A DNA stretch of 64,000 nt from the NCBI GenBank assembly GCA_942159475.1, contig OW804095.1, forward strand, positions 92,455,740 to 92,519,739. Reading direction: 5' to 3'. The notes beneath the pieces are model-generated. The model saw nothing but the letters and a program-made list of their open reading frames with translations. It was not told where the DNA came from and searched no databases. Origin of the DNA: Sthenelais limicola (Eukaryota; Annelida; Polychaeta; Phyllodocida; Sigalionidae). The translations under genes and the position numbers were made by a program. Shown here in pieces: positions 1 to 61,297 of this stretch; position 1 is the first letter of the stretch; each line of letters opens with the position of its first letter.

Positions 1-278
1 AAAAACTGTTCGTAACTTTGGCAATACTGCTCGGATTGGGTTCAGATTTTAGAATTGAGACAAGGAACTGAGCCTCTACCAGATAAGTATATACAAAATG
101 TTCATGCACCCTATCTTTGAAAGACCCCAATTTCGGTCAGGAATCAGGCCCTGTTGTTTAAGAACTGATTTATTACACTTTTAATACTTTATTAAGGGTA
201 TTATGAGTATTTTCCTATGATAATATGGTAGGTGTTAGTCAAGGAATAGTGCGATCATTCATTAAGGTGTTGAGGTAG

Positions 279-428
279 CGTGCTGGTACGCCCCACCAAG
301 TTTAACCCTTTGTACAACTGTCACCTGGTTGAACATTATCGCCGCTCCTCACTGGAGCGTGTGATTGAGTCTCTGTCAACAAAGAAGCATGGAGTTGACA
401 GTAATCTGATCCATGGCCTGTCACCAAG
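279..428 (+). CDS. candidate internal exon of an unrecognised host gene
   Basis: An open segment of about 49 codons begins VLVRPTKFNPLYN and ends NLIHGLSP, followed by a good donor (CCAAG|GTAATA) at 428/429. It is richer in GC than its surroundings and reads like real protein, with balanced residues and no low complexity. An in-frame TGA at 271-273 means the acceptor lies downstream of it. The AG at 277-278 gives a 150-bp exon that starts with the last base of a codon and ends after two bases of one (phase 2-2). The AG at 299-300 (phase 0) is an alternative, and neither has a strong pyrimidine tract. The motif FNPLY resembles an NPxY endocytic or PTB-binding signal, which would suit a cytoplasmic tail, but this is inference. 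I do not recognise the family. The phase matches the exon at 6390. Confidence 0.5.
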
Positions 429-1845
429 GTAATATTATCCCTTCTGTCACAATTACTGCCCTGAATAGGGGAGTTATAAGGTGGGATATTGTGGAATTGC
501 TAATTTTGGAATTCAAGGACGCAAGTCATGAGTTTTGTACTGAAGTCAGTACTTTTTGAAAACGTTGAAAAATTGTCAATTCGGTCCTATACCAAGAATG
601 TATAACCATACATCGTCAAATTAAAATAAGTATCAAAATCGGATATATTATATACCGTATATAATGTATGTGGATAAACTCGACAGAAAATTAATCCTTT
701 TACAAAACCCCATATATAAGACAAAAATTATACAGTTCAACATATTTTTAAACCAGCTCAATATACTAAATAATTTAGCAAAATATTTACTGTGTAGAGC
801 TATTGATTGTACATTTTTTCCCATTGGTTGTACATTGATACTTTTTTTGATGACCTGGCAGGTTTGTTACTAAAAATCCATGGACAGAATAAAATGTGAT
901 GTGTCACAGACAGATGCGAAAATGGATCTTATATATACCATGTTATTTGAAAAGACGACATCAAGCAGATTCCCACGATGCTAGCATTAGAAGAGCTAAT
1001 AAGTACGTCTTACATAATAAGATATAGAAGTCCGATATCTTATCATGTTTGAAAATGAGCAAATATAGCAATACATAATCAGTAGTAAATTTGTTAAACA
1101 CATTATATACCCATGCAGATAAAGGTGTAATGACACCGAAACATCGGTCATATTGCAAGTAACGTATTTTATGAGGTTGTGCCCCTTCCACACTTGTCAG
1201 GCGCATGCACACTGGAGACGCGGACATTTCAAACACTCACTTCTCTCACCAACACCTTTGGACTCTCACCTGTTTTTCCTGTGAAATGTTTTTTTCCTGT
1301 TATTTTCAAAATCCCGGTAATAATCCCTCAGGCGTTTAGTTGTGGTGGGGCATACATAAAAGTCAGCGGTATTTTCATTCCTTTGCAGGTTGTATTCAAA
1401 ATGCATGTAAGGTTGCGTTTATCAACGATTACAACTTTAATGGTGATGACTAACCCTTCATTTGGAACTTACGAACATGATAAATCCGTTAAATCCGTTA
1501 ACTTATCAACATTGATCATCAACATCTATGATCCTTATTCTTTCAAAAATTATGGAAATACAAGAAGTGGGGTCTGGATTTGGAACTTTAAAGTTTGATT
1601 CTTCTCGGTGTGATCCAACTTGTGTGATCCAATTAATTCACAGAGCGATCAGTGGTCATAAATGGGTGCACTTATTTATTTACTCTTATTTCCCCCACAC
1701 GCCCCATCTGTGCTATACAATACAAATATGCATTAAAGCCCCAAGTATAGTTCATATTTGTACATACAATCCAAGCTTTTTAGATGACCTTGTATTTGGG
1801 GCTGATTATAGTGAAGATGTAGCGCAGGGCAAATATGCCTAACAA
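429..1845. other. AT-rich noncoding stretch, probably intron
   Basis: No coding segment stands out. The open frames here are short and have random composition. Around 780-845 there is a decayed end of the GTCAGAAAATGTACAAT family (TGTGTAGAGCTATTGATTG followed by TACATTTTTTCCC). Nothing else is recognised. Confidence 0.5.
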
Positions 1846-2400
1846 CCCTGGCCGAGAGAGAGAAGGGAATGAGAGATGGGAGAGAGAGAGAGTGGGGGGG
1901 GGGGAGAGAAGGGAATGAGAGATGGGAGAGAGTGAGGGGGGAAGAGAGAGAGAGAGAGAGAGAGAGAAGAGAATGAGAGATGGGAGAGAGAGGGAGGAAG
2001 AGAGAGAGAAGAGATTGGAGAAGAATGAGAGATGGGGAAAGAGAGAGAGAAGAGAATGAGAGATGGGAGGGAGAGGAGAGGGAGAGATGGGGAGAGAGGG
2101 GGGCAGAGAGAAGGAAATGAAAGATGGGGAGAGAGGGGAGAAGAGAGATAGAAGGGAATGAGAGATGGGAGAGACGGGGGGAAGAGAGAGCAGAGAATGA
2201 GAGATGGGAGAGAGAGGGGGAGGAGAGAGCGAGAGGTAGGGGGAAAAGGAGAGGGGGAGGGGGAGCAAAAAATAGGGAGAGGGAGAGAGAAGAGAGGGAG
2301 AGACAGAGAAAGAAAAAGAGAGAGAGAGAGGGAGAGAGAGAGAGGCGAGAGAGGGTGGATGGGTGAGAGAGGGAGATGAAAGAGGAAGGAGAGAGGGAGT
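1846..2400. repeat. 550-bp purine-only (GA-rich) minisatellite
   Basis: The + strand is almost exclusively A and G for about 550 bp. A degenerate unit of roughly 40-50 bp, centred on GGAATGAGAGATGGGAGAGA, recurs more than eight times (for example near 1867, 1912, 1970, 2055, 2155 and 2195), separated by (GA)n and G runs. All six frames are open for long distances only because the composition excludes stop codons, so no protein is called. Long mirror-like polypurine tracts of this kind can form triplex (H-DNA). Confidence 0.9.
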
Positions 2401-3121
2401 TTTTGTGAAAAAAACGATGTTTAAATAAACATTTGGAATAATGATGAACATAAAAGAATTGTTAGATGAATACGCTACATTTTGATGCCCAGAAAAATGG
2501 TGATGTGTTTATTACATGTATACATAATATTCCACAGACAGACAACATACAGTGAAAATAAATTTGCATGTCCAGAATCGCTTTACTCTATTTTAGTATT
2601 CGCCGGTCGCTGCTGTACTCCAGACAGTGACATAACTACCCCTTACAAAATACTGCACTACGATCCCACACTTTTACAGGCTAATTTTCTCCTATGTTTT
2701 ACCAAGAGGCATCATTATCCTTTTGGTGATTTGTTCTAGAGCGTTCCTACTCTGATAATACGATCGTTACTATAAATAAGCCATTTCTTTCGATCCTACA
2801 CGGGTTATTACTGCCAGAAATGTCTTCATTTATGTATTGATGTATTAGAATTGATAAGCTGCCAAATATACAAAATATGGATTCTCTCTCACATTGGGTA
2901 ATCTTAGTGTAAACGGAGTAAATTACAGGGAATTAAGCGCTAATCCTTGATTAAATCATTTTCATTAGCAATCACTTATTCCAGGGTCTAATTACTTTAA
3001 TCGACTTGCAAACCTCTACAATTAGACAAATGTGTCACCTTTTTACTTTTACAACGAACAATTTATAGAGGATAAGCAGCGTCCGTTTTTTTGTCGTTCA
3101 TGAATCGTATTCTATGCAGTG
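2401..3121. other. no recognised feature
   Basis: AT-rich sequence with no convincing exon, RNA gene or repeat copy recognised. Confidence 0.4.
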
Positions 3122-3289
3122 TAGGCTCAGGGTTAACAGAGTCCCTCCAAACTGAGGGAAAGCCTCTCGCTCCAAGCCTCGAAATGCCATACGAATCTAA
3201 TTAGGACTCCAGGGCGAAGAAAGCAATTAGCGTCCAAGTAGTAGGCGTCCAATGACGTTCTTATCTGATTCGAGGGGCTCTTAGCCTAG
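3122..3289 (+). mobile_element. MITE family C copy (TAGGCTCAGAG ends)
   Basis: About 168 bp beginning TAGGCTCAGGGTTAACAG and ending GGGGCTCTTAGCCTAGA, so the two ends are inverted relatives. The internal block CCCTCCAAACTGAGGGAAAG is shared with 42670-42835 (+) and, reversed, with 26481-26632. Three copies in one window with matching ends indicate a short non-autonomous DNA element. No coding capacity. Confidence 0.75.
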
Positions 3290-3611
3290 ACTGAGCTACC
3301 GATTGCACTTTTATCTAATATAATTTTGCCGTGAGTTCGAAGGGATCTGATAGGCTCTGAGCCTAAACTGCATATATATGCATACGACCCTGCCTATGCA
3401 CTAGGAATGTGCATACAGGTCTATTGATTACATGAAGACAGATTGTGTGTGCAGTTCTACAAAAAAGTTTCTTCTGCCCCACCCTTAATCTAGGTGCCAC
3501 GCCCTTACCATGAATATAGGAAAAACTTCCTCCTAACTATTTATTAGCAGGTACAAAGGATTTATACACCAGGCATAGGAAAATATCAATATGTACACGT
3601 AAGGGGGGAGT

Positions 3612-5542
3612 CAGTAGGGGATTTGCATGTGCCACTGGGCACGTCTGTTACAGTGCATGCTGGGATAGATTCAGGTCAAACATGACATGCAAATAGTTCT
3701 TAAAAGAACATACCGCCTTCAGAACAATTATAGCCCTATCCCTACTTCTTGAGGTAAAATCAATGTCAGCTAAGTTCGAACATAATTATGGTGAATAATA
3801 AGAGTCCTAGGGGGCTTACAATCTTGGATCATGATGTTTAATGCAGGCAGACATCTTTGGAGGAGAGAATTCTGCCTGCCATGCTAGCATGGCGAGTGCA
3901 CTGGGTCATGCTCCTCCTCCTACTGGCATTTTTGCAATGATACATAGCAGAAATAGGCATGTCCTCATTAGATCTGAATCTCTACATGCTATGTATGGCC
4001 AGATTTCACTTTTTGAAGTGTGATTTTATGAAAGAGAAGGTGTTCTGTAAGTGGTAAACAAGTCTTGCTAAAACCGGAACAGACAACACTCTTGTCGGCC
4101 CCCATTTATCACTCACAAAAACAAAAATTCTTTCGGGACTTTTTTGCTCTCTTTTTTTTTCACCCACTATTAGCAAAGAAAATGGCTTATTAGGGATCTG
4201 AAATGAGGAAAACATGATTCAAACTCCAACCAAACTATGCCAAAGGCACTTCTACTGGGAAACCTTATATAGGTTCCACTCTTTTCATGGGCGCCTACTC
4301 TATTCCAAAACGTTGGGACTGGGGCCCATTGCTCCGTTTTTTCGCTAACTATATCTCCATTGGAAGTGTATGGAGAAATAGTTAGCAAGAAAACGGAGCA
4401 ATGGACCCCAGGGGGGTATAAATATGAAGACACAACTTTGTATCTTGCCACCTGAATTTCAGAAGCATGTATATTTTTATCAATGCCAGTTATCCAGTAT
4501 AAGGAAGCTATAATCGAAACTATACTGTTACATGAGTAAACAATAGTTTGACAAATTCTCAGCGATATTGAACATTGACAGTTTGGTTGAAATTACATCA
4601 ACTGACATGATCGGTAGAAATGGAGTGAAAAACACTATTTACACACATAATTCATCAAAATAAAGTTAAAATTCAGAAAGAACAGCCCTTCCACCCATCA
4701 GATTTGTATTTTTCAAAAATATTGGTCCATGATCGGAGGGAAAGTAAAATATGTTGGTAGAGAGAAGTCCTGGGCTGGGATTTGATCACCCCAGTCGGCA
4801 CAACTCTGGAGGTTGTAGTAGACAACGCCAAATCCACCGAGGAAGGGGGATCCACCTGTGACAGGACCAGCTAGCACCTTTATCAGATGTTTGCTAGAAT
4901 TTATTTGGATCAATAATATTATATTGGTGAATAAAATAAGGATGATCGGAGGGAAAGTATATGGTAGGGCATATGTTTGAAAAAAGGCTTGCAATTCTAG
5001 CCCAAGGTGGTAGGTACATAAAAAAAGTTGTAAGAGTTACAATAATGTCGTAACTCTTATGATTACCCGATCCTGGCAACAACGCAACAACGCGTCGTAA
5101 CATCTTCTAATTTATGCAACGTTAGTAATAAACATTTATGATGGAGTCCTTGACAGCGCTTTTTCCGTGTTGAGTGGGGACAGGAGTGGGGATCTATGGT
5201 GGGTGGGGTCTTTATTGTTTAGGTCTAGGCCTATATAAGGGGATTCAAGGGAAACCGTTTTTTTCCTTGGTCACAACCACAATTTCATGTTTAGAAACAT
5301 TTTTTATCGAAAATTGCAAGAATAATTTCATCCATGGCTTGTATAAATGCTCTATAAAAACAAATGCATGATGGGAAAGATGGGCGCTTATGTTATGGAA
5401 ATATCTATGGAATATTGACCTGAAGCATCAATAAATATTCCATGCTGAACATGACATGTTTTCTATAGATTTTACATTGACATACAACTCCAATTCCATG
5501 GGAATCAAAATTCAAGATGGCGGACATGCAACTCCCCTATTG
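3612..5542 (+). mobile_element. MITE family G copy, split by about 1.6 kb
   Basis: The left end (TAGGGGATTTGCATGTGCCA, 3614 on, homology to about 3700) and the right end (homology from about 5280 to 5542, ending AAGATGGCGGACATGC then CTCCCCTATTG) match the two halves of the contiguous reverse-strand copy at 38263-38644, in the same order and orientation. The simplest reading is one MITE interrupted by a later insertion of about 1.6 kb. The intervening DNA contains the hairpin at 4319-4411. Its own termini were not identified. Confidence 0.6.
4319..4411. repeat. 42-bp-arm hairpin
   Basis: Arms 4319-4360 and 4370-4411 are inverted copies with 4 mismatches in 42, separated by 9 bp. The core is ATTGCTCCGTTTTTTCGC against its reverse complement. 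Such a long, near-perfect foldback is typical of a small foldback element or a MITE tip. No coding content. Confidence 0.85.
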
Positions 5543-21289: not shown

Positions 21290-21534
21290 ACCTATAACTG
21301 TGCGTAATTTGCGTACGCTTCCCGTAAGAGCCACTATGGTGCGTACTAAACCGAGTTACCAATGTGATACATTAATTAATACTATAACAATATCGTTTTG
21401 CTTGTTTAAACGATGATCTCTGTAGCGTACTATATTAGATCTATAACTATCTGAGGAGTACAATTTATTTGTTACCAGAAATTAATGTAAATTAGTATAT
21501 CGATTCTTGTATTTGGTCAGTATTAGCTGAAAAG
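21290..21534 (+). repeat. dispersed repeat I, left part (interrupted)
   Basis: Matches 62150-62388, including GATGATCTCTGTAG and GTATATCGATTCTTGTATTT then GGTCAGTATTAGCTGA. Continuation of the repeat resumes at about 22781, after the inserted LINE. Confidence 0.75.
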
Positions 21535-22100
21535 CCTTTAGTAACCATCTTAGTAGTATACGGAGGAAAATATCTCACAAACTGTGGTTATTTAAACACC
21601 TCCGAAGCAGGCTGAATCAACACCTTAGCGTTCAAGTTTACAAGACATCCATACTCCCACTATTCGACCAGGCTGATATATTTTATGATGGCGCGCCTAA
21701 ATCCAAATTAACCCACCTTCAAACCCTTCAGAATAGAGCACTCCGGATAATTATAGGAGCAAATAGATACCAATGCGTAAGACCACATCACCAACGATTC
21801 AGCCTTCTTCCATTAAAAGAGAGGAGAAGATTACACTTATTGCAGCAAGCTTACAGCCTCAGGCTTAATAGTGATTTTTTGGATGAAAGGAGGATACCCA
21901 CTCGTCAACATGACCCCAACAGAATTGTTTTTAAATGTCCAAATCCTAGACTTGAATTAATCAGAAGATCCTTTTACTATAAATTACCCCTATATTGGAA
22001 TAACCTTGAACCTGCCTACCAAACCGCAGAAACCCCCAAAGCCTTTACTAACATGATAAGACCTGATTGGATAGGTGTCGATGCCAGATTCCTCGGCTAG
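21531..22100 (+). CDS. LINE ORF2 C-terminus (RT thumb and tail), intact frame
   Basis: One uninterrupted frame of 189 codons ends in a TAG at 22098-22100 and encodes the region after the reverse-transcriptase palm. KISHKLWLFKHLRSRLNQ, VYKTSILPLFDQADIFYDG, LQTLQNRALRIIIGANRY, PHHQRFSLLPLKERRRLH and the terminal RRSFYYKLPLYWNNLEP are all classic CR1/L2/Rex-group motifs (thumb, 'LQNRALRII', 'LP..ERR', 'WN.L'). No ATG is expected because the insertion is 5'-truncated just upstream of the thumb. The lack of any stop or frameshift suggests a recent insertion. Catalytic residues are absent, so it is not a functional enzyme. It is followed by a 660-bp 3' UTR. Confidence 0.8.
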   Translation, partial: KAFSNHLSSIRRKISHKLWLFKHLRSRLNQHLSVQVYKTSILPLFDQADIFYDGAPKSKLTHLQTLQNRALRIIIGANRYQCVRPHHQRFSLLPLKERRRLHLLQQAYSLRLNSDFLDERRIPTRQHDPNRIVFKCPNPRLELIRRSFYYKLPLYWNNLEPAYQTAETPKAFTNMIRPDWIGVDARFLG

Positions 22101-30290: not shown

Positions 30291-30679
30291 CTAGGGTTTG
30301 GTCAGCTGAATTTTTATCCATCGAGGTTGTGGGGGGAGACAGAGGGGCGGAGTGTAGCGTAGCCCCGAGGTCTCCCTCCGCAACCGAGATGGATTAAGGC
30401 TGACCACAGGTTAAGGCTGACCAAATAAAACCCGTGGTTGATTCCATATTTATTTCACCCCGTACATCGTTTTAATGAATGAAACTTTTAATTTTAAGTT
30501 CCTAGCTTTATCATTTCCAGAGAAAATCGGTAAAACGATCGAGTGGGCGATAATATGAGTTCTGCAAAATCAAAACAATGTTGTTGTATCAGTCGGGGGC
30601 GTGGTAATTTTCATGTTATCACACGCTCCCACTGAGCGGGAGATACAATGCTGAAGGTATGGGCAACTCCCAAGAGGGG
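30291..30679. other. insertion or diverged segment inside the RNase H remnant
   Basis: About 390 bp separate the two RNase H halves. The segment includes AAGGCTGACCA twice (about 30398 and 30415) and GAGTGGGCGATAAT (30541), the latter shared with 61340-61353. It is most simply a later insertion, but its ends are not defined. Confidence 0.45.
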
Positions 30680-30959
30680 TGAAATAATTGTTGGCGCCTA
30701 TCAAGGCAATGAGTATGGCCTGCAGTTCACATCCGAAGATGGATACTGAGATGCGTACAGCCCTTTCATCGGTTTCAGAGGTGAACGCTCCTGCAGCCGC
30801 ACGTTCAGTGACAAGTGTTCCGTCTGTGTAGTCGATGGGTCTTCCTTCCAAAACGATAGCAATGTGCTCTTCATAGAAGTTTTTGAAGACTTCTTTGAGG
30901 ATGTAAGGGTGGGCCAGGGTGCCCAGGGTTGTGTGTAAGGGAGAAGGCCATAATGGCAC
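30680..30959 (-). pseudogene. LINE RNase H, N-terminal half (minus strand)
   Basis: The minus frame reads EVFKNFYEEHIAIVLEGRP then YTDGTLVTERAAAGAFTSET and FGCELQAILIAL. YTDG carries the first catalytic Asp, and CELQAI carries the Glu, of an RNase H domain as found downstream of reverse transcriptase in I/Jockey-group LINEs. Upstream, at 31030-31740, is the matching reverse-transcriptase end in another frame. Confidence 0.75.
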
Positions 30960-31029
30960 ACATCCCTTATGAATCCTGGTGGCCAGAATGGTCCATGAGG
31001 TGCCCTTGAAGGATGCAACTTTTTAGACG

Positions 31030-31740
31030 TTAACCAGAAGTTGTCGGTGATGGTGATATCCCGGGTTGTGGAGAATTTTGTCCACCAATTTGGTGGTGGC
31101 GATGATGCCTCGCTGGAGTCTGTCTGGCTTCCAGTATGATGGCTTCCGAGATGGGCAGTTGAAAGGCATGTCTGTTGGCAAAGTTCTGCACCTTCTGCAG
31201 GGTTTGGAAGTTCGCCCTGGATAGGCTGATGAGTGTGGTCAGGGCTTGATCCGTGACAGAGGTGACAGAGGCCTTGACCAGCATAGATAACTGAGTGAGG
31301 GACGGACCACCATTGATGTGGGCCAGGACGCCTATGGGGTATGCACATCTGGTGGCTTTTTTGGCTACATACTCCCAGTGCTGGCTAAACTTTAGCCTGT
31401 TGTCGGTGACAAGACCCAAGTATGTGTGAGTGTCGACCCAGTCAATGGGTTCCCCGTGGATGGTGAGAAAGGTAGTCAGGATTTTAGACCGTAGGAGGAT
31501 GGACTTGGATTTGGCTGGTGCCAGGTTGAAGCCTATGTGGTTGATGGCCTTAGTAACTCTGTCCAGGACATTTTGGCAGTGCTTGTTGTTGGAGCTAAAG
31601 CGCCCATTGATCACGATGGCCAAGTCATCAGCCTATAGGCAAGGACTTAAGTGTCGGTGGGGAGGGGGACCTCGAGGATGGGCTGTTGGGCAAAGTTGAA
31701 TGGAAGGAACTATAATCATGTACTAGATGGCTGTCATGGA
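31030..31740 (-). pseudogene. LINE reverse transcriptase, palm-thumb part (minus strand)
   Basis: The minus frame contains ADDLAIVINGRFSSNNKHC, NHIGFNLAPAKSKSILLRS, HTYLGLVTDNRLKFSQHW and QTLQKVQNFANRHAFQLP, that is, the active-site Y/F-ADD box followed by palm and thumb motifs. The active-site box itself is broken: TAT and GCTGATGAC are separated by two extra bases (AG), which also creates a stop in the downstream frame. Upstream codons (NFAQQPILEVPLPTDT) run in the frame before the shift. With the RNase H that follows, this is a decayed I/Jockey-superfamily LINE of about 1.8 kb, 5'-truncated. Confidence 0.8.
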
Positions 31741-53926: not shown

Positions 53927-54178
53927 ACAGTTGAACATTGGTCACACAAACCTAGTGCTGTTTGGCAGTGCTGCACGTGCTGTGACGTCCCTTTACCGCT
54001 CAGACAAGTGAAAATAAACTTCTCCAAATTCACAGAAATGTTCATTTATAAACAGAATCGTTCATTTGGGATCTTTAATAAGAGTCATATTAAGCTTCCT
54101 ATCTCTTTAGTTACTTTATCTAAATCGTAACCCACAGATTGGCGCACGCATGGAGGGGTGCTAGATAGCTCCCAGATA

Positions 54179-54195
54179 TATTCAGGATCCGACCA
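54179..54195 (+). repeat. 17-nt sequence inverted at 58032-58048
   Basis: TATTCAGGATCCGACCA in the LINE leader is a perfect reverse complement of TGGTCGGATCCTGAATA at 58032-58048, immediately before the endonuclease frame opens. Confidence 0.85.
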
Positions 54196-54347
54196 CATAT
54201 CGCCAACTCCCATTCATGGAAATTACTATACCAATCCATGAACGTTAGGAGAATGCAAAGGCATATCGTACAGACTCAAAAAGACCACAGATAAGTAAAT
54301 TCACCCACATGTTTCATTTGCGAACGTGGATGTCTGGAGGAAGCAAG

Positions 54348-54887
54348 ATGGCGGACGCTGACCAGTCAACTGACCAACAGCCCCTAGACGATTCAATCGA
54401 AGTGGAACAAGATAATTCGGACAGCGAGTCATATCTGACCGACGAACTGGACGATACACAAACATTGGACCCCCAAGATCACAAAAGCAAGGAGAAATCC
54501 CCAGACACGGTGATCAACTACAAGGATCCAGCTCCAGTAACACTCATGAGCAATACTGACAGCAACGAGAGTCGGTCAAGTCACCGCACCGACTCGCCGA
54601 CAGCCCGTCAATATGTAAACAGTGCCTCCCAAACCGACGCAACGTTGATCTCAAAAAAGGATAGGGATGGAATGAAAAAGGAGATTAAACGTGAAATCCA
54701 ACTGGACATCGCAAAACATTTTGCAGAAGACGGACATGCCTTTATCCAAGGTGCAAGCACAACAAAGCTTAAACAATTGGAAGCAGACGTAAAAGCACTA
54801 AGAGCCGACCTACATTACACTAGGAATCAGCTTATCAACAACAACGCGAGCGGGGGGGGGGCACTCCCAACTCTACACCAGTATTGA
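54348..54887 (+). CDS. LINE ORF1, N-terminal part
   Basis: The ATG at 54348 has a strong initiation context (CAAGATGG) and is preferred over the upstream in-frame ATG at 54309. The product begins MADADQSTDQQPLDDSIEV: an acidic, Ser/Asp/Thr-rich, probably disordered N-terminus. This is followed from about 54660 by a charged helical region (MKKEIKREIQLDIAKHFAED, LKQLEADVKALRADLHYTR) that looks like a coiled coil, as in the trimer-forming ORF1 proteins of L1-type elements. The frame ends in a TGA at 54885-54887, only because of a 10-G run at 54852-54861. Shifting back one base continues the same protein into the next entry. In the living family this is probably one ORF of about 615 residues. Confidence 0.8.
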   Translation: MADADQSTDQQPLDDSIEVEQDNSDSESYLTDELDDTQTLDPQDHKSKEKSPDTVINYKDPAPVTLMSNTDSNESRSSHRTDSPTARQYVNSASQTDATLISKKDRDGMKKEIKREIQLDIAKHFAEDGHAFIQGASTTKLKQLEADVKALRADLHYTRNQLINNNASGGGALPTLHQY

Positions 54888-56194
54888 CTTCTGAAAGTAA
54901 ACTTCTCAAAAGAGTAGACGACATTGAAGACAAGGTAAACAACAAAGCCACAGAAAAATGGTTCTCTAAAACTAAAATTGAACAGGCCATAGCAGTCAAA
55001 TCTACCGACATTCCTAGATTAGAACGCAACTTTGACACTTTCGCTGACGATATAAGAAAGGGTCAAAAGGAGATGAAGGAAGCCATCATCAAATTGGAAA
55101 AACTAAGAACACAGCTAGAGACAAAAACAGACACCATCAAAGAAAAAGTCCAAAACAGTAGGAAAATCCAACAGCCCATCGTGGATACACCTTATATTAT
55201 GTTAGAATCACTACCTGAAGCGTGGATGCTAGAAGACGGCTCCCCCAGACCAGGTGACTCACAACAGAGTATCAAGGCCTACAAGGAGGACACCTCACAG
55301 ATAACAATTAACATGTTCCAATCCATTGAGCCAACTTTCAAAATATCGGATATGAAACAGTGCTATAGAGTGGGAAGAGCTAGGATACACGACATAAGAC
55401 CACTATTTATTGAACTGGGAAATCCAGAGATTAAGAAGAAAATAATTACAAAGGCCAGGAAAATCAGAGAAACCAGCAAATTCTCGAATGTATGGTTCAA
55501 TAGATTAAATACACAATCATTTGACCAGAATCAAGCTATGTTATATGACTGCTTCACGTTACTCAAAATGAACAATATACGAGCGGAACTCGTACTGAAT
55601 CACATTAAAATCGGTACAGAAACATACAGAGCAAGGGACCTACATCTACTGCCCACCCATTCCAACCCATCATCAGTTGCTAACATACAGGTTGACGGGA
55701 AGGATATAGGATTCCACGGTGAGCACTCAATCTACTCAAACTTCTACATGACAGACTTTTTCTATAAGGGAAACAGGTATGCCTCAGCCGAGCACTGCTA
55801 CCAGTCGGCGAAAGCCTCCCACTTGGGAAGCGCACGCGCAGCGACTGACATAAGCCTCGCTGCACATCCAGCAACGGCGAAAGCGCTTGGCACGAGGCTC
55901 GCACTAAATAACCAAGAGAAAATGAAAGATTGGGAAGCAAAAGAAGAAAGAGTGATGGAAGAAATAGTTATAGAAAAATTCAGACAACATCCTGAACTTA
56001 GACGACAACTCACAGCCCATAACAATACAAAATTCTATGAAATAACAACATCGCTGAAATGGGGCACCGGCTTCCGCGCGCCTGCAGTAAATGTCCAAAA
56101 TGGCGACAGAGTGGGACTCGAGTCGAAGTTCTTCCGTGGCGAAAACAAACTAGGGACAATCCTTGCTAGAGTAAGAGACCATTTACAGAACTAA
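54860..56194 (+). CDS. LINE ORF1, C-terminal part: RNA-binding region plus NADAR domain
   Basis: This frame continues ORF1 after the G run and has no ATG at its start. Order: coiled coil (LLKRVDDIEDKVNNKA, about 54896-55160); an L1-ORF1p-like RNA-binding region (ITINMFQSIEPTFKISDMKQ, CYRVGRARIHDIRPLFIEL, RAELVLNHIKIG, to about 55650); then a complete NADAR domain (about 55697-56190). NADAR signatures are all present: FHGEHSIYSNFY (SNFY 55736), YASAEHCYQSAKA (Glu 55790), ATAKALGTRLAL, a Trp at 55931, VIEKFRQHPELRRQL, KFYEITTSLKWGTGF (Trp-Gly 56060) and GENKLGTILARVRDHL. NADAR proteins (YbiA family) act on ADP-ribose conjugates or riboflavin-pathway intermediates. The DarT1-linked ones remove ADP-ribose from guanine in DNA. 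Fusion to ORF1p would carry the activity to element RNA or cDNA (inference). The domain call is firm. Confidence 0.88.
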   Translation, partial: GTPNSTPVLTSESKLLKRVDDIEDKVNNKATEKWFSKTKIEQAIAVKSTDIPRLERNFDTFADDIRKGQKEMKEAIIKLEKLRTQLETKTDTIKEKVQNSRKIQQPIVDTPYIMLESLPEAWMLEDGSPRPGDSQQSIKAYKEDTSQITINMFQSIEPTFKISDMKQCYRVGRARIHDIRPLFIELGNPEIKKKIITKARKIRETSKFSNVWFNRLNTQSFDQNQAMLYDCFTLLKMNNIRAELVLNHIKIGTETYRARDLHLLPTHSNPSSVANIQVDGKDIGFHGEHSIYSNFYMTDFFYKGNRYASAEHCYQSAKASHLGSARAATDISLAAHPATAKALGTRLALNNQEKMKDWEAKEERVMEEIVIEKFRQHPELRRQLTAHNNTKFYEITTSLKWGTGFRAPAVNVQNGDRVGLESKFFRGENKLGTILARVRDHLQN

Positions 56195-56253
56195 GAATAA
56201 CAACAAGCAGACAGTCAGCAAATCCGGAGTATACAGTGACACAAAGCAGGATA

Positions 56254-56943
56254 ATGGAAAGATTAGACGTCCTAATACTGGCGGATTCGAGAGGTAGGGG
56301 CATCGAGCAGCAACTCACCATAGGCTTACCGAACATGAAACCAGGTGCGGACATAAACAGAGCAGTAGAGGCAGGAATACAAACAACAGCCCTGAATAGA
56401 CCCAGGCTTATAATTATCACTGCAGGCATATGTGACTTAACTAAGAGAGACAAGCGAGAGAAGGGACGCCAAATAACACTTAAGCACAGAACTCAAGCAC
56501 TATTTGAAGAATACATATGGAACGTCCTACCTGCCTCAGTCATAAAGCTATCAGAGGCAGTACCATCTCCTAACGAGAAGCCTGTGGTGAGTTTCTCCAC
56601 TCTTATCGGCCTTGATATTAACAAATACAACTTATACCTGGCCGCCAGAACAGGGGCCGAAGATCTATTCATCCCCTGCTCACCCGACGAACAAAACATT
56701 CTAAACCAGTCCGTACTAGCCTTCAACAGAATAGTTAAGAAATCAAACTCAAGCCAACCAGTAGTAACACCATATATCAGTCAGCTTGTCCACAGATGCA
56801 AACCAAAAAGAAGATCAAAAGAGACACCGAAATACACAACACTCTACAACAAACTACATGAAGACGGGTGCCATTACTCACCAGAACTACTAAGCCAAAC
56901 TACAAACCAAATCACGACTGCAATAAACAAAATGCTACCATAG
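56254..56943 (+). CDS. LINE accessory ORF, SGNH-hydrolase-like
   Basis: A separate 229-codon ORF starts 60 bases after the ORF1 stop, so it is probably reached by reinitiation. The first ATG is at 56254 (ATAATGGAA). MERLDVLILADSRGRGIEQ carries block I of the SGNH/GDSL fold (GDS changed to ADS, with the nucleophile-position Ser12 kept). PRLIIITAGICDLTKRDKR (G58-D61) is block III with the usual Asn changed, and EDGCHYSPELLSQTTNQI carries the block V Asp-x-x-His (D204, H207). Length fits the family. SGNH/esterase domains are known in ORF1 of CR1-like LINEs. Here the domain is a separate ORF and ORF1 is of L1 type. Catalysis is plausible but unproven given the altered blocks I and III. Confidence 0.75.
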   Translation: MERLDVLILADSRGRGIEQQLTIGLPNMKPGADINRAVEAGIQTTALNRPRLIIITAGICDLTKRDKREKGRQITLKHRTQALFEEYIWNVLPASVIKLSEAVPSPNEKPVVSFSTLIGLDINKYNLYLAARTGAEDLFIPCSPDEQNILNQSVLAFNRIVKKSNSSQPVVTPYISQLVHRCKPKRRSKETPKYTTLYNKLHEDGCHYSPELLSQTTNQITTAINKMLP

Positions 56944-58060
56944 GGCCGATCATAGTCAGAGAGACTGCTTTTTTATCCGAAAGGCGGACTCAAAAAGCTA
57001 CGAAAAGCTCAATACGGTAATGTGCATAGTGATAAGCAAACTTTGGTAAAACAGGACCGATAAAAAAACCCGGAGGCATAGCTATTTTATCCGAATGGCT
57101 GTCCCAAAAGTTGAGAGAGGCCTGACATGGAGAGCCACATTATTAACAATAATATTAATATACAGTAAGAACTTACCAGGACACTGACTACTTAAATCCA
57201 TCTTATTTTTCTTATTTTTACATCCATCCTGTTCTTTTATTTTATTCTATTAATAGGCTACAAATCCAACCTAGATATACACGGAGGAAATGGGTATAGA
57301 TGTAACTTTACTTGACCCGAATAGCACTAATGTCACTGGTCACACCGATACACCGATACTGATGTCGCTTCTATGTCTATGTCTATGTCTAGGTCTATCG
57401 TTTATCGTTTATTGTTATACCCATGTGGGTCAGACACATATACCATGCTACTATGCCTGGGTTATCGTTTATCATTTGTTGTTATACCCATGTGGGTCAG
57501 ATACATATACCATACTGAGACAGTAATTAAGCATCTTATCACAAATATATAGTCTCCGATCGATGGGCAGGTGTGAGAGGGTGGTGAATCTGCGGATGGG
57601 GTAATGGTGGTGGCAGCAATGAATGGAAGGCTGACACAGGGCCAAAAGGTGAATCTATCTCAGACACGACCAATCGAAACCAGAGGCACAGCTATTTTAT
57701 CCGAATGGCAGTCCAGAAGGTGGAGAGAGGCCTGACTGAACCTAGAACACAATTTAAGATCGTATAGGGCACTGCCTGCCGTTGTTGCTATTGCTATTGT
57801 GATCATTATGCTGATGTACTCTGCATGCCACTCGGGGCCCACCTACCCACCTGCCTACCGTTCCCACCTTACCATGTACAAAGAACTCTGGACTTATTTA
57901 ACAGTCTTATTCAACAGTCTTATTTTATCTCGTACTTTTTTATACTATCATTGTTATCTTCTCAAGTATGATATATTCTTTATGTGATGTATTTTCCCTC
58001 TGATATAACTCATGAGACCAATCATTTGAATTGGTCGGATCCTGAATAGACATGCTATAG
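56944..58060 (+). other. LINE inter-ORF linker with internal repeats
   Basis: 1.1 kb without a conserved ORF. Direct repeats: GCTATTTTATCCGAATGGC with flanks at 57072-57130 and 57680-57737 (about 85% alike over 58 bp), with a weaker third copy at 56970-57000 (TTTTTTATCCGAAAGGC). A tandem pair of about 60-70 bp around GTTATACCCATGTGGGTCAG is at 57402-57462 and 57463-57514. ACCCATGTGGGT is itself a palindrome. The linker ends with the 17-nt sequence inverted from the leader and a TAG at 58058. Confidence 0.75.
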
Positions 58061-59323
58061 AGAGCGAAAATTAATTTAAATCGGATAGATGACGAACAAC
58101 CAGATATCCCCAGTCATGAGTACAGCATTGACAAGGTCGCCCGAACAAAGGGCTTAAAACTGGCATCATGGAATGTCAGAAGTTTAACCCAAAAGGTCAG
58201 CGCGGTCTCAGATTTCCTGATACAAACAAATATAGAGGTTCTAGCCATACAAGAGTCATGGCTCAACAGCAGTATACATGACAACGTTTTACAGATAAAA
58301 AATTACAACTCTTTTAGATCAGATCGCAGCCTAAGAAAGAGAGGGGGAGGGTTAATTATATATGTAAACGATCAATATACCGTAGATGAAAACACTTATA
58401 GCCACCTGAATTCGTGCACAGAACATCTGGAAGCACAAGTAATCAGAATAAACAAGGGTCGAGCAAAAGCGATGATCATTTGCAACATCTACAAACCTCC
58501 CAATGGTAAACTTGAAGTGGCTCAGGAGCATCTGAAGACCGTGCTGAACGCAATGGGTAAGAACCCAGACTTAGTAGTCCTGGGAGATTTTAATGTTGAC
58601 CACCTGGGGGGTCAGAAAGGGGGGGGAGGGAGGACCAAAGGCTCACCCTCATCACAAGCAATACTTCCACCAAACCCAGTGACCGATTTTATGTTTCCAT
58701 TTGGTCTACACCCACAAATACTAACACCAACAAGGGTCGACACAAGATCAGAAAGACTCATAGACCAAATATACACCAACATGAACAACATAACAAATAA
58801 AGGAGCAATCATAGACTTCACCAGCGACCACTTCCCCATATTCATCTCAAAAAAGAAGCAGAGAAATACATACATCAACAAAGACATCTCCTCACGATCT
58901 TGGAAAAACCTAGACATGAACATACTTAAACAAATACTAAGGGACGAAAACTGGTGCGAACTCTACCAATCCAGTGACGTAGACAAATGCTGGAACATTG
59001 TAGAAGACAAAATCAACACTTACTTAGACAGGATGTGCCCCAAAAAAACATTCAAAAACACCAAAATAAAACCAGCATGGTACACCGATGAACTGAGGAG
59101 CAATGCTAAACAGAGGGATAAAGCCTTCTTGAAAGCAAGGAAGTCAGGGGACAAGGTAGACTGGGACAAAGCAAAACAAACACGCAACAAATTCAACTCG
59201 AAAATGCTACAATCAAAAAACACATACCTTAAAAAAGAAATAGAAGAATGTGGGAAGGACAGGGCTAACTTCTGGGACATAATCTCACCATTACTAAACC
59301 CGGACAAACTAAAAACAAAATGA
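58061..59323 (+). CDS. LINE APE-type endonuclease (N-terminal part of ORF2/3)
   Basis: The frame is open from 58061 but has no in-frame ATG before 58472, which would delete a third of the domain. ATG 58089 is one base out of frame, so a small indel near the start is likely. All endonuclease motifs are intact: LKLASWNVRSLTQK, VLAIQESWLNSS, RKRGGGLIIYVN, NIYKPPNG, LVVLGDFNVDH (Asp/Asn near 58586), RLIDQIYTN and FTSDHFPIFI (SDH near 58823). The C-terminal linker (WKNLDMNILKQILRDENW to NFWDIISPLLNPDKLKTK) ends at a TGA at 59321-59323, where the reverse-transcriptase frame should follow. The enzyme nicks target DNA to prime reverse transcription. Confidence 0.85.
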   Translation, partial: RAKINLNRIDDEQPDIPSHEYSIDKVARTKGLKLASWNVRSLTQKVSAVSDFLIQTNIEVLAIQESWLNSSIHDNVLQIKNYNSFRSDRSLRKRGGGLIIYVNDQYTVDENTYSHLNSCTEHLEAQVIRINKGRAKAMIICNIYKPPNGKLEVAQEHLKTVLNAMGKNPDLVVLGDFNVDHLGGQKGGGGRTKGSPSSQAILPPNPVTDFMFPFGLHPQILTPTRVDTRSERLIDQIYTNMNNITNKGAIIDFTSDHFPIFISKKKQRNTYINKDISSRSWKNLDMNILKQILRDENWCELYQSSDVDKCWNIVEDKINTYLDRMCPKKTFKNTKIKPAWYTDELRSNAKQRDKAFLKARKSGDKVDWDKAKQTRNKFNSKMLQSKNTYLKKEIEECGKDRANFWDIISPLLNPDKLKTK

Positions 59324-60875
59324 GGTTGGCCCACCACAATTCTCCTTCTCCTTCTCCCCGATCAGCCAGGCCCAGGTGGTCAAGCAAATAATCCGGTCGG
59401 GCTCTAGGAAAGCCTCTGGGATCCCGCACATCCCAACAAAGGTATTGAAACCCATAATGCTTACCCTATCACATCAACTAACCCATATTTTCAATCTGTC
59501 GATACAAAAGGGAATAGTACCACGTTCATTTAAGATAGCCACCATCACCCCACTTTTCAAAGGGGGAAAGAAGGATGAGTGCACCAACTATAGACCCATA
59601 GCAGTGGTAAAATACCCGGCCAAAATACTAGAAAAATTAGTCCATGAACAATTATATAACCATCTAGAAGAAAATAATCTGCTATATGAACACCAATACG
59701 GATTTAGGGCGAACAAATCAACTGAAATGGCCCATCACAGAATCTTGGAAACGGTGTATGGCAACTTGAACTCCGGGAAGGCAACAACGCTTGCCTTCCT
59801 GGATTTCAAGAAAGCCTTTGACACGGTCAACCACAAAATATTATTACAAAAGCTACAAGGGGTGGGCGTGGACGATTCCACCCTTGAATGGTTAAAAAAT
59901 TACCTGACAGACAGAAAACAAAGGGTGACAGCGAATGGTTTTACCTCCAATGAAGGGAGTGTTGTGTGCGGGGTCCCACAGGGAACGGCCCTGGGCCCTC
60001 TTATGTTTTTAGTGTACATTAACGATCTGTATAAAAGTGTAAAACAATGTGGAGTCCAATATTTTGCAGACGACACAGTGCTATATGCGTCGGGAGCGGA
60101 TGCCGCTGATAATAATGTAATGCTGGAGGACGACCTCCACAGAGTGGGAGTCTGGTGCAAGATGAACAAAATCTCCCTGAACATCAAAAAGAGCCAGGTC
60201 ATGACAATACACAACAAGCCAAGAAACACCACAGAAACTAACACACCAAATATACATATAAACAAAGACAAGTTAGAAAACACAACATCATACACATACC
60301 TCGGTGTAGACATAGACAACACGCTCTCATTCAAAAAATATATAGAAAGACGAATCTCACAAGCACAGTCACGAGTCAAAGCCCTCACCAAAATATCAAG
60401 GGCACTCACAAAAGACACAATTATAATGCTATACAAAATGACGATCAGACCAATACTAGAATACGGAGACACACTATACAACGTCGCACCAAAACAGACA
60501 CTCAACAGAATAACAACAATACAAAACAGAATCATCAAACTCGCACTCAAGCTACACAAAAGAACAAACGTCGAACACCTACACGAAGAAATGGGCTTGC
60601 AACTACCACACACTAGAAGACAAATACACTTACTACAAAAAGCATATAAAGACACACAAACAGAAGAAAAACTAGACAGAAGAAAAATCAACCTCAGATC
60701 ATTATCACAAGGACCGACACTAATAGTCCCGAAACCAAAAAGCGAAAAATTCAGGAGGTCATTTGTGTACCAGGCACCCACTCTGTGGAATAGCCTCGAC
60801 GGCAAAGTTAGATGTATACCAGACTATAAAGCCTTCCAACGCTATCTAGGCACCCATTACACCGCCGACAACTAG
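59313..60875 (+). CDS. LINE reverse transcriptase (CR1/L2 group)
   Basis: Open from 59313 in a different frame from the endonuclease. It begins mid-protein (FSFSPISQAQVVKQIIRSGS, then RKASGIPHIPTKVLKPIM), with no plausible start of its own. Motifs follow in order: FKIATITPLFKGGKK, NYRPIAVV, HQYGFRANKSTEMAHHRI, LDFKKAFDTVNHKILLQKL, GVPQGTALGPLMFLVYINDL, QYFADDTVLYASGA (FADD 60063-60074), SLNIKKSQVM, TYLGVDIDNTLSF, LYKMTIRPILEYGD, IQNRIIKLALKL and a terminal FVYQAPTLWNSLDGKV. Compared with the family, several tens of residues are missing between the end of the endonuclease linker and RKASG, so the junction is a deletion plus a frameshift. No RNase H follows. The palm is intact. Confidence 0.9.
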   Translation, partial: KQNEVGPPQFSFSFSPISQAQVVKQIIRSGSRKASGIPHIPTKVLKPIMLTLSHQLTHIFNLSIQKGIVPRSFKIATITPLFKGGKKDECTNYRPIAVVKYPAKILEKLVHEQLYNHLEENNLLYEHQYGFRANKSTEMAHHRILETVYGNLNSGKATTLAFLDFKKAFDTVNHKILLQKLQGVGVDDSTLEWLKNYLTDRKQRVTANGFTSNEGSVVCGVPQGTALGPLMFLVYINDLYKSVKQCGVQYFADDTVLYASGADAADNNVMLEDDLHRVGVWCKMNKISLNIKKSQVMTIHNKPRNTTETNTPNIHINKDKLENTTSYTYLGVDIDNTLSFKKYIERRISQAQSRVKALTKISRALTKDTIIMLYKMTIRPILEYGDTLYNVAPKQTLNRITTIQNRIIKLALKLHKRTNVEHLHEEMGLQLPHTRRQIHLLQKAYKDTQTEEKLDRRKINLRSLSQGPTLIVPKPKSEKFRRSFVYQAPTLWNSLDGKVRCIPDYKAFQRYLGTHYTADN

Positions 60876-61297
60876 CCGGAAGTATTATATATGTATATTG
60901 AAGATACTGAATAATTGATGCCCTCGTGACTGGGGACTGAATCTCACTATATATCCCACTAGCCAGTAAAGCTAAAGTTCCAACCGGTTACAACCAATAA
61001 CAACAATATAAGAAAACTTATAAACTGAAGAAAACCGACATAGGTCGGAAAGGGTGCTTGCACACCCGCCCTTGTATATATACGTACACTTTTGTACGCC
61101 TTATTCACATATATTACGCATAGTTAACTAGTCAACTGTTATAACTTATATGTTAGATCATTTATATGTTCCAAACAACGGGGAGCTCGGAAGAGCTGTG
61201 AATAGCACAGACAGTCCTCCAATTCCATTATTATTCGACTCAATTCATGTATAACTGTGTGATGGAAATAAAATCGATTATTATTATTATTATTATA
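60876..61297 (+). other. LINE 3' UTR with stem-loops and (ATT)n tail
   Basis: CCGACATAGGTCGG (61035-61048) and GGGTGCTTGCACACCC (61052-61067) are two adjacent short hairpins of the type LINE reverse transcriptases often recognise. The end is AATAAAATCGATT followed by (ATT)n (about 61275-61297). Confidence 0.75.

Follow-up and report, generated by a model that had tools for sequence, protein, structure and literature searches.

The polychaete Sthenelais limicola harbors a large set of LINE (long interspersed nuclear element) families in which a NADAR domain lies behind the C-terminal domain (CTD) of an L1-type ORF1 protein, the product of the first open reading frame (ORF) of the element. One damaged copy of a young family of this set is contained in the stretch of DNA analyzed here, hereafter the window (64,000 nucleotides, C2:92455740-92519739, contig OW804095.1), within a host genome of 1.13 Gb (G000). 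The NADAR domain is under purifying selection in the pairs of copies tested, and the presence of an intact, selected domain suggests that these LINEs use it to erase a mark that the host sets on their RNA or DNA.

A sequence-only reading of the window had placed an uninterrupted NADAR domain at the C-terminus of a LINE ORF1 protein, behind an L1-type RNA-binding region. The profile search confirmed this assignment: PF08719 matched residues 299-454 of the main ORF1 frame (P0001) with an E-value of 9.4e-25 and 88.2 bits, for a cut-off of 35.1, and neither a stop nor a frame break was found within the domain. Comparison of the window domain with PDB entries identified YbiA (2b3w, E 6e-07) and a NADAR chain (8bau, E 2.4e-05), and a NADAR profile (A3) reached the same entries with E-values of 2.3e-20 and 6.6e-24, respectively.

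Searching the host genome with the Pfam NADAR profile gave 5561 first-look candidates. The 150 that were scored all lie above the curated Pfam cut-off (E 1.6e-31 to 8.4e-27); an inner stop was present in two of them and absent from the other 148, and the open frames (median 617 amino acids, aa) reach at least 300 aa for 140. The window ORF1 protein, used as a query, yielded 93 scored matches among 4811 candidates, with identities from 100% (the window itself) down to 36%. Judging by the query ranges, 91 of these reach the NADAR part, and none of them overlaps the 150 profile matches. The domain is thus found at no fewer than 241 places in the genome (150 plus 91, window copy included), all repeat counts given here being lower bounds. 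A one-off chimera, the possibility that presence across the family was to decide, is rejected on the strength of both searches. LINE endonuclease (EN)/reverse transcriptase (RT) sequence lies downstream at 16 of the 17 places read. The exception, L054 (C1:94850379-94856679, 4870-5355, minus strand), is a stand-alone NADAR frame of 162 aa (E 3.2e-31) outside LINE context. Suspected to stand alone as well are two further frames of 162 aa on C1 (89380390 and 66983187), which share the profile range of L054. Protein searches with ORF1 returned few relatives, two in one search and three in the other (8000 candidates scored).

To quantify selection, pairwise ratios of non-synonymous to synonymous substitution (dN/dS) were derived by the Nei-Gojobori method, with 95% bounds obtained from a codon bootstrap. 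Saturated pairs (no ratio, or dS above 2), for example L011-L024 with a NADAR ratio of 0.127, were excluded, and four pairs were used for NADAR. Their ratios were 0.196 (0.114-0.322), 0.167 (0.096-0.289), 0.146 (0.088-0.248) and 0.050 (0.019-0.097). With values of 0.05-0.20, far from 1, the domain is therefore clearly held by selection, as had been supposed from its open frame. In the same four pairs, the RNA recognition motif (RRM) and CTD region showed ratios of 0.066-0.094, some of them with dS above 1, and the NADAR ratio exceeded the RRM-CTD ratio in three of the four; the N-terminal part of ORF1 gave 0.22-0.38, some coiled-coil values likewise having dS above 1. The pair L040-L041, the only one for which these parts are available, gave 0.093 for a second, SGNH-like ORF, 0.102 for the EN part and 0.098 for RT. 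Within this pair dS varies by part (RT 0.31, EN 0.38, NADAR 0.56, SGNH-like ORF 1.0, RRM-CTD 1.1), which hints at an exchange of segments between elements and limits the comparison of ratios from one part to another.

Active-site residues were numbered as in PMC11543638 and mapped through chain 8bau, presumably the Phytophthora chain of that paper. A NADAR match was present in 53 of the 54 rows fetched, L023 having none, and residues were counted over 42 distinct loci, a non-random sample composed of the best-scoring matches of the Pfam and ORF1 searches plus five of the places read downstream and including the window copy. At the catalytic positions E43, K50 and E125, the window copy has Glu, Lys and Glu. 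The catalytic glutamates are retained almost throughout (E43 in 41/42 loci, E125 in 42/42), W89, W133 and K75 are kept in all 42 loci, and K50 is Lys in 36 and Arg in six. Based on these residues, the NADAR domain of ORF1 is probably an active hydrolase.

The L1 ORF1 protein (ORF1p), an RNA chaperone with RRM and CTD, is a trimer. Profile A7, built from nine ORF1s over the 170-190 residues preceding NADAR, produced three PDB matches with E below 0.01: the LINE-1 ORF1P entries 2yko (6.6e-4) and 2ykp (7.1e-4), and 2ldy (1.2e-3), annotated 'ORF1 codes for a 40 kDa product', whose printed part is letter-identical to the LINE-1 ORF1P entries. The RNA-binding region upstream of NADAR is thereby corroborated as L1-type. 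Only the profile reaches these structures, and no match to Transposase_22 in Pfam was found with single ORF1 sequences. A putative coiled coil in the N-terminal part of ORF1 was seen by eye and through weak matches to coiled-coil families. The A7 matches assign the region before NADAR to the RRM-CTD of type II ORF1ps as classified in PMC4120745. NADAR stands directly behind the CTD, and the junction is alike across 11 ORF1s of the host genome. By eye, ORF1-like proteins of other origin have a similar junction (P0002, P0003, P0005-P0008, P0010, P0014 and P0052), with a looser likeness in P0004, P0018 and P0019. ORF1 of the L043/L044/L052 family continues behind NADAR with a C-terminal tail, about 140 aa long in L043.

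NADARs hydrolyze ADP-ribose (ADPr) from the N2 position of guanine in DNA, according to PMC11543638, and in PMC11833690 they are the sole active family among the hydrolases tested for the removal of guanosine-linked ADPr on RNA. The function of animal NADARs is called unclear in PMC11125620. Because NADARs reverse guanine ADP-ribosylation on both DNA and RNA, protection of the element's nucleic acids by the ORF1 domain, as already suggested from the window, is a sensible inference. ORF1p would hold NADAR near the element RNA or the single-stranded cDNA during target-primed reverse transcription, and NADAR would take ADPr off the guanine bases of either. An ADP-ribosylated template may hinder translation or reverse transcription, and we therefore propose that the domain would be a counter-measure against a host ADP-ribosyltransferase (ART). 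The nature of the substrate is suggested by the adjoining module, predicted to bind RNA and single-stranded DNA (ssDNA). That an active NADAR strips guanine ADPr from element RNA or cDNA and so counters a host ART is the reading we favor, tentatively, since its chances fall slightly short of even.

Several observations weigh against this proposal. The ADPr contacts of the Phytophthora protein are mostly lost (R79 kept in 0/42 loci, Y84 in 0/42, D86 in 1/42 and R93 in 2/42), and position D130 is Ser in 29 of the 42 loci, those of the window's family among them, and Asp in 13. E. coli YbiA, which is reported active, lacks Y84, D86 and R93, yet has R79. According to PMC11125620, YbiA of E. coli K-12 is active in vitro and is not an antitoxin against DarT1, so that a conserved active site leaves the substrate unfixed. 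In the comparison with RT that had been envisaged for the family, the NADAR ratio of L040-L041 is about twice the RT ratio (0.196 against 0.098), with overlapping bounds and between parts of unequal dS. As for the enzyme that would place the mark, DarT (PF14487) had no match in the host genome, the control having matched in one of 14 genomes, and DarT is rejected as the host writer. A Scabin-like ART was also without a match among 16 candidates, but this search allows no conclusion because its control was silent too. The interpretation made from sequence alone holds in part: the fusion, the purifying selection and the retained glutamates stand, protection of the element's nucleic acids is putative, and the DarT and Scabin-like searches found no guanine-acting host writer.

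The sequence-only reading had pointed to PARP- or DarT-like host defenses; while DarT was not found, the host has 23 PARP domain matches among 38 candidates (control: 0 of 14 genomes). The number of PARP genes is lower than 23, since matches were counted exon by exon. One locus, L056 (C6:65849600-65857600, frame 2-4657), has a 2107-aa open frame, of which 1551 aa lie inside the locus; it encodes an AAA_11/AAA_12 RNA-helicase core, a ZNFX1 domain (PF25396, E 3.5e-13) and PARP catalytic sequence in two stretches (E 7.2e-37). From these domains, L056 is possibly an RNA-sensing host ART, and such a ZNFX1-PARP protein is an attractive candidate for the writer, its marking of guanine being putative. 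PARP matches also occur in two further frames of about 2000 aa (C7:72259422 and C7:79592852). At L057 (C9:33581500-33586500, frame 3-3221), a long open frame contains a PARP catalytic domain (E 1.1e-11) and also matches a cold-shock domain weakly (E 3e-05, under the cut-off).

Other explanations of the conserved domain were considered. The hydrolase may be active on another substrate, such as a soluble ADPr derivative, a host cyclic signal or ADPr on protein (PARPs at the site of integration, or proteins of the element's ORFs); joining NADAR to ORF1p would then serve only to pack it into the ribonucleoprotein particle. This would agree with the argument of PMC9503650 that phage NADARs mostly target small ADPr signals, and with a host in which PARP domains are present and a guanine-specific ART was not detected. 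However, the same paper prefers macromolecular ADPr as the target of NADARs in animal RNA viruses, guanine-ADPr is hydrolyzed by the NADAR/YbiA proteins assayed in PMC11125620 and PMC11833690, and a nucleic-acid substrate agrees better with the position of the domain immediately after an RNA/ssDNA-binding module in the ORF1s compared; we consider this explanation unlikely, although a serious competitor. A role in binding or structure without enzymatic activity, for example as an ADPr reader or a nucleic-acid clamp, is more improbable still: the loss of several ADPr contacts and the Ser at D130 would suit such a role, and some SGNH proteins have lost hydrolysis and kept a role (PMC3905857), but the two glutamates are near-invariant although NADARs of different families are often only about 30% identical. 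The damage to ORF1 and ORF2 in the window copy would agree with a NADAR that was captured once and is now a passive, functionless relic. Such an origin is highly improbable given the upper bounds below 0.33 on all four NADAR ratios, the near absence of inner stops among the scored matches and the presence of the domain in diverged families; a relic without selection is rejected by the four-pair dN/dS, unless these values are an artefact.

If NADAR does act on element nucleic acids, LINE ORF1 proteins would have two enzymatic activities and no longer one; esterase ORF1ps were described in 2013 as unique among ORF1ps in this respect (PMC3905857). More than 200 NADAR copies exist in this genome, mostly on an RNA-binding retrotransposon protein where they were read, and selection and catalytic residues are kept where examined. 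The data point to a role of guanine ADP-ribosylation of RNA or ssDNA in animal retrotransposition, and the ORF1 NADARs offer a ready enzyme set for testing guanine de-ADP-ribosylation. A bolder statement, which we regard as more doubtful than the favored reading itself, is that a major animal LINE lineage encodes its own nucleic-acid de-ADP-ribosylase on ORF1p, as a long-standing counter-defense of retrotransposons. This would imply an undiscovered host guanine-ADPr marking of retroelement RNA or cDNA, perhaps by RNA-helicase/PARP proteins like L056.

The history of the fusion was addressed with an RT (ORF2) tree of 11 loci, rooted on a human L1 RT fragment that sits on a very long branch, and a NADAR tree of the same 11 loci. 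Groups with good support that appear in both trees are (A,A2,B2), (D,G) and the E trio; (C,C2) is also common to them, with lower RT support (84/90). In the deep order, the two trees disagree or are unresolved. A wider tree comprised 82 NADARs, including 60 of 121 other proteins with a domain match, the 121 being the matches among 120 of 202 proteins found, plus P0004. In this tree, a weakly supported branch (76/94) sets apart 19 LINE rows (17 from the host genome, P0002 and P0003) together with five other proteins. These five have, by eye, ORF1-like residues before NADAR, and five further ORF1-like proteins lie across the branch from the LINE rows. The simplest reading of these trees is one old fusion followed by descent with the element. 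Independent captures of NADAR by several LINE families would explain the weakness of the branch separating LINE NADARs from the rest, and the LINE label requires five changes on the best tree, two of them forced by starred branches, in a labeling where some of the 'others' rows are ORF1-like. The elements with NADAR in PMC12477816 moreover include both LINEs assigned to Tx1 and Gypsy retrotransposons, the latter probably a separate case. On the other hand, in the ORF1s compared, the domain occupies the identical position behind the CTD and the junction is conserved, and a single clade of all 29 ORF1-type rows was not rejected (p-AU 0.339), a result compatible with the clade without demonstrating it. 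We judge separate captures improbable and prefer one old fusion. Recent capture from the host's stand-alone NADAR is rejected: L054 groups with non-LINE rows, on a long branch and with an unsure placement.

The ORF1-NADAR fusion as such is already published: through a Repbase query, PMC12477816 (Genome Biol 2025, on Ectocarpus) identified several Tx1 LINEs of Crassostrea gigas whose ORF1 carries NADAR. As in our elements, a YbiA-family NADAR belongs to a LINE ORF1, and that paper, too, suggests that the domain helps to process the RNA intermediate. In the text available to us, the oyster case is a remark from a Repbase protein query on elements filed under Tx1, whereas the ORF2s described here may be Jockey-like (L2/CR1 group) by their motifs, and the present analysis adds the SGNH-like ORF (11 of 16 places), dN/dS, residue and copy counts, and the RT and NADAR trees. 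The Ectocarpus Gypsy elements of the same paper are likewise retrotransposons with a conserved NADAR domain, but theirs lies in Pol and was probably acquired separately. The DarT1-NADAR toxin-antitoxin systems of PMC11543638 share the family and the positions of the catalytic Glu (E43) and Lys (K50); as described there, they have a catalytic Asp and a paired DarT, whereas the ORF1 domains have the YbiA-type Glu at E125 and their host no DarT match. Some positive-strand RNA viruses of animals, likewise RNA-based selfish elements, encode a NADAR in the polyprotein along with their replication functions, and PMC9503650 proposes that these NADARs counter host ADP-ribosylation. Their carriers are viruses and not LINEs, and 'retrotranspos' and 'retroelement' have 0 occurrences in that text. 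Selection on an ORF1 NADAR, or its scale, was not found reported in what was consulted of the open-licence PMC literature.

The RRM-CTD part of our ORF1s corresponds to the type II (CC-RRM-CTD) ORF1s of Jockey-superfamily LINEs in PMC4120745, a paper whose main text contains neither NADAR nor YbiA, and the second ORF may be akin to the type IV esterase ORF1s described in PMC4120745 and PMC3905857. There the two are listed as distinct types of ORF1, whereas a single element of ours appears to contain both, each in an ORF of its own. A description of this three-ORF layout was not found in the available text of the open-licence PMC literature on ORF1 and esterases.

The SGNH-like ORF was found at 11 of the 16 LINE places, at ten by tblastn and at L049 by alignment; tblastn did not find it in L043, L044, L045, L047 and L052. 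In the window, its motifs read DSRG ... G ... GICD ... DGxH. Of the SGNH blocks, those with Ser, Gly and Asp-x-x-His are invariant in nine rows of profile A6, but Cys takes the place of the Asn of block III. Sub-threshold Lipase_GDSL_2 matches occurred in two of eight second ORFs (L046, E 0.0086; L041, E 0.064), and no Pfam GDSL match was found for the second ORF of the window, which lacks six residues present in L040. Searched against PDB, A6 gave seven rows up to E 10, the best being 9hi6, a designed protein (E 0.027), and a GDSL-like lipase, 3p94, appearing at E 0.19. This ORF may act in membrane targeting, as PMC3905857 proposes for LINE esterases.

The positions of the element and its parts in the window are collected in the following table.

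Parts of the NADAR-bearing LINE in the window (positions of the window)
Feature	Position	Strand	Basis or remark
Whole LINE copy, about 7.15 kb, with (ATT)n tail	54143..61293	+	Extent common to the 99%-identical copies L039 and L040; tail read
ORF1 N-terminal part, predicted from in-frame ATG	54330..54887	+	Frame changes at a G-run near 54855, which separates this part from the main frame
ORF1 main frame with RRM-CTD, NADAR and, by eye, a coiled-coil-like stretch	54824..56194	+	456 codons, stop to stop
L1-type ORF1p RRM and CTD region, limits approximate	55178..55711	+	Profile A7 against PDB
NADAR domain (PF08719), ORF1 C-terminus	about 55721..56188	+	Pfam and PDB matches; catalytic residues
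Second ORF, 229 aa, SGNH/GDSL-esterase-like	56254..56943	+	Invariant columns of A6; sub-threshold GDSL matches in relatives
ORF2, apurinic-type endonuclease part	58061..59323	+	Exo_endo_phos, E 9.6e-13
ORF2, reverse transcriptase and C-terminal part	59313..60875	+	RVT_1, E 3e-37

From 5' to 3', the element consists of ORF1, the second ORF, a spacer of about 1.1 kb, ORF2 (EN and RT) and the (ATT)n tail. By its predicted domains, it is a non-LTR (long terminal repeat) retrotransposon with an apurinic-type endonuclease. In all eight ORF2s of relatives, RVT_1 and an Exo_endo_phos family domain were found, the latter slightly below the cut-off in L046. By their motifs and the short-repeat tail, the elements may belong to the Jockey superfamily (L2/CR1 group), and by motif the RTs do not look L1/Tx1-like. 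ORF1 of the window copy is broken, its N-terminal part lying in another frame (54249-54887) that switches at the G-run, and so is ORF2, which lacks about 150 bp of L039/L040 at 59315-59320. All three ORFs are open in L039 and L040 (the loci L011 and L012), with 647 aa for ORF1, 263 aa from stop to stop for the second ORF and 990 aa for ORF2, endonuclease and RT lying within this single frame.

The spacer (56944-58060) contains internal direct repeats of 60-75 bp, 84-90% alike, and alignments between copies run crosswise there. Elsewhere in the window, fragments at 21531-22100 (plus strand) and 30570-31632 (minus strand) resemble, by eye, the RT ends of other LINEs.
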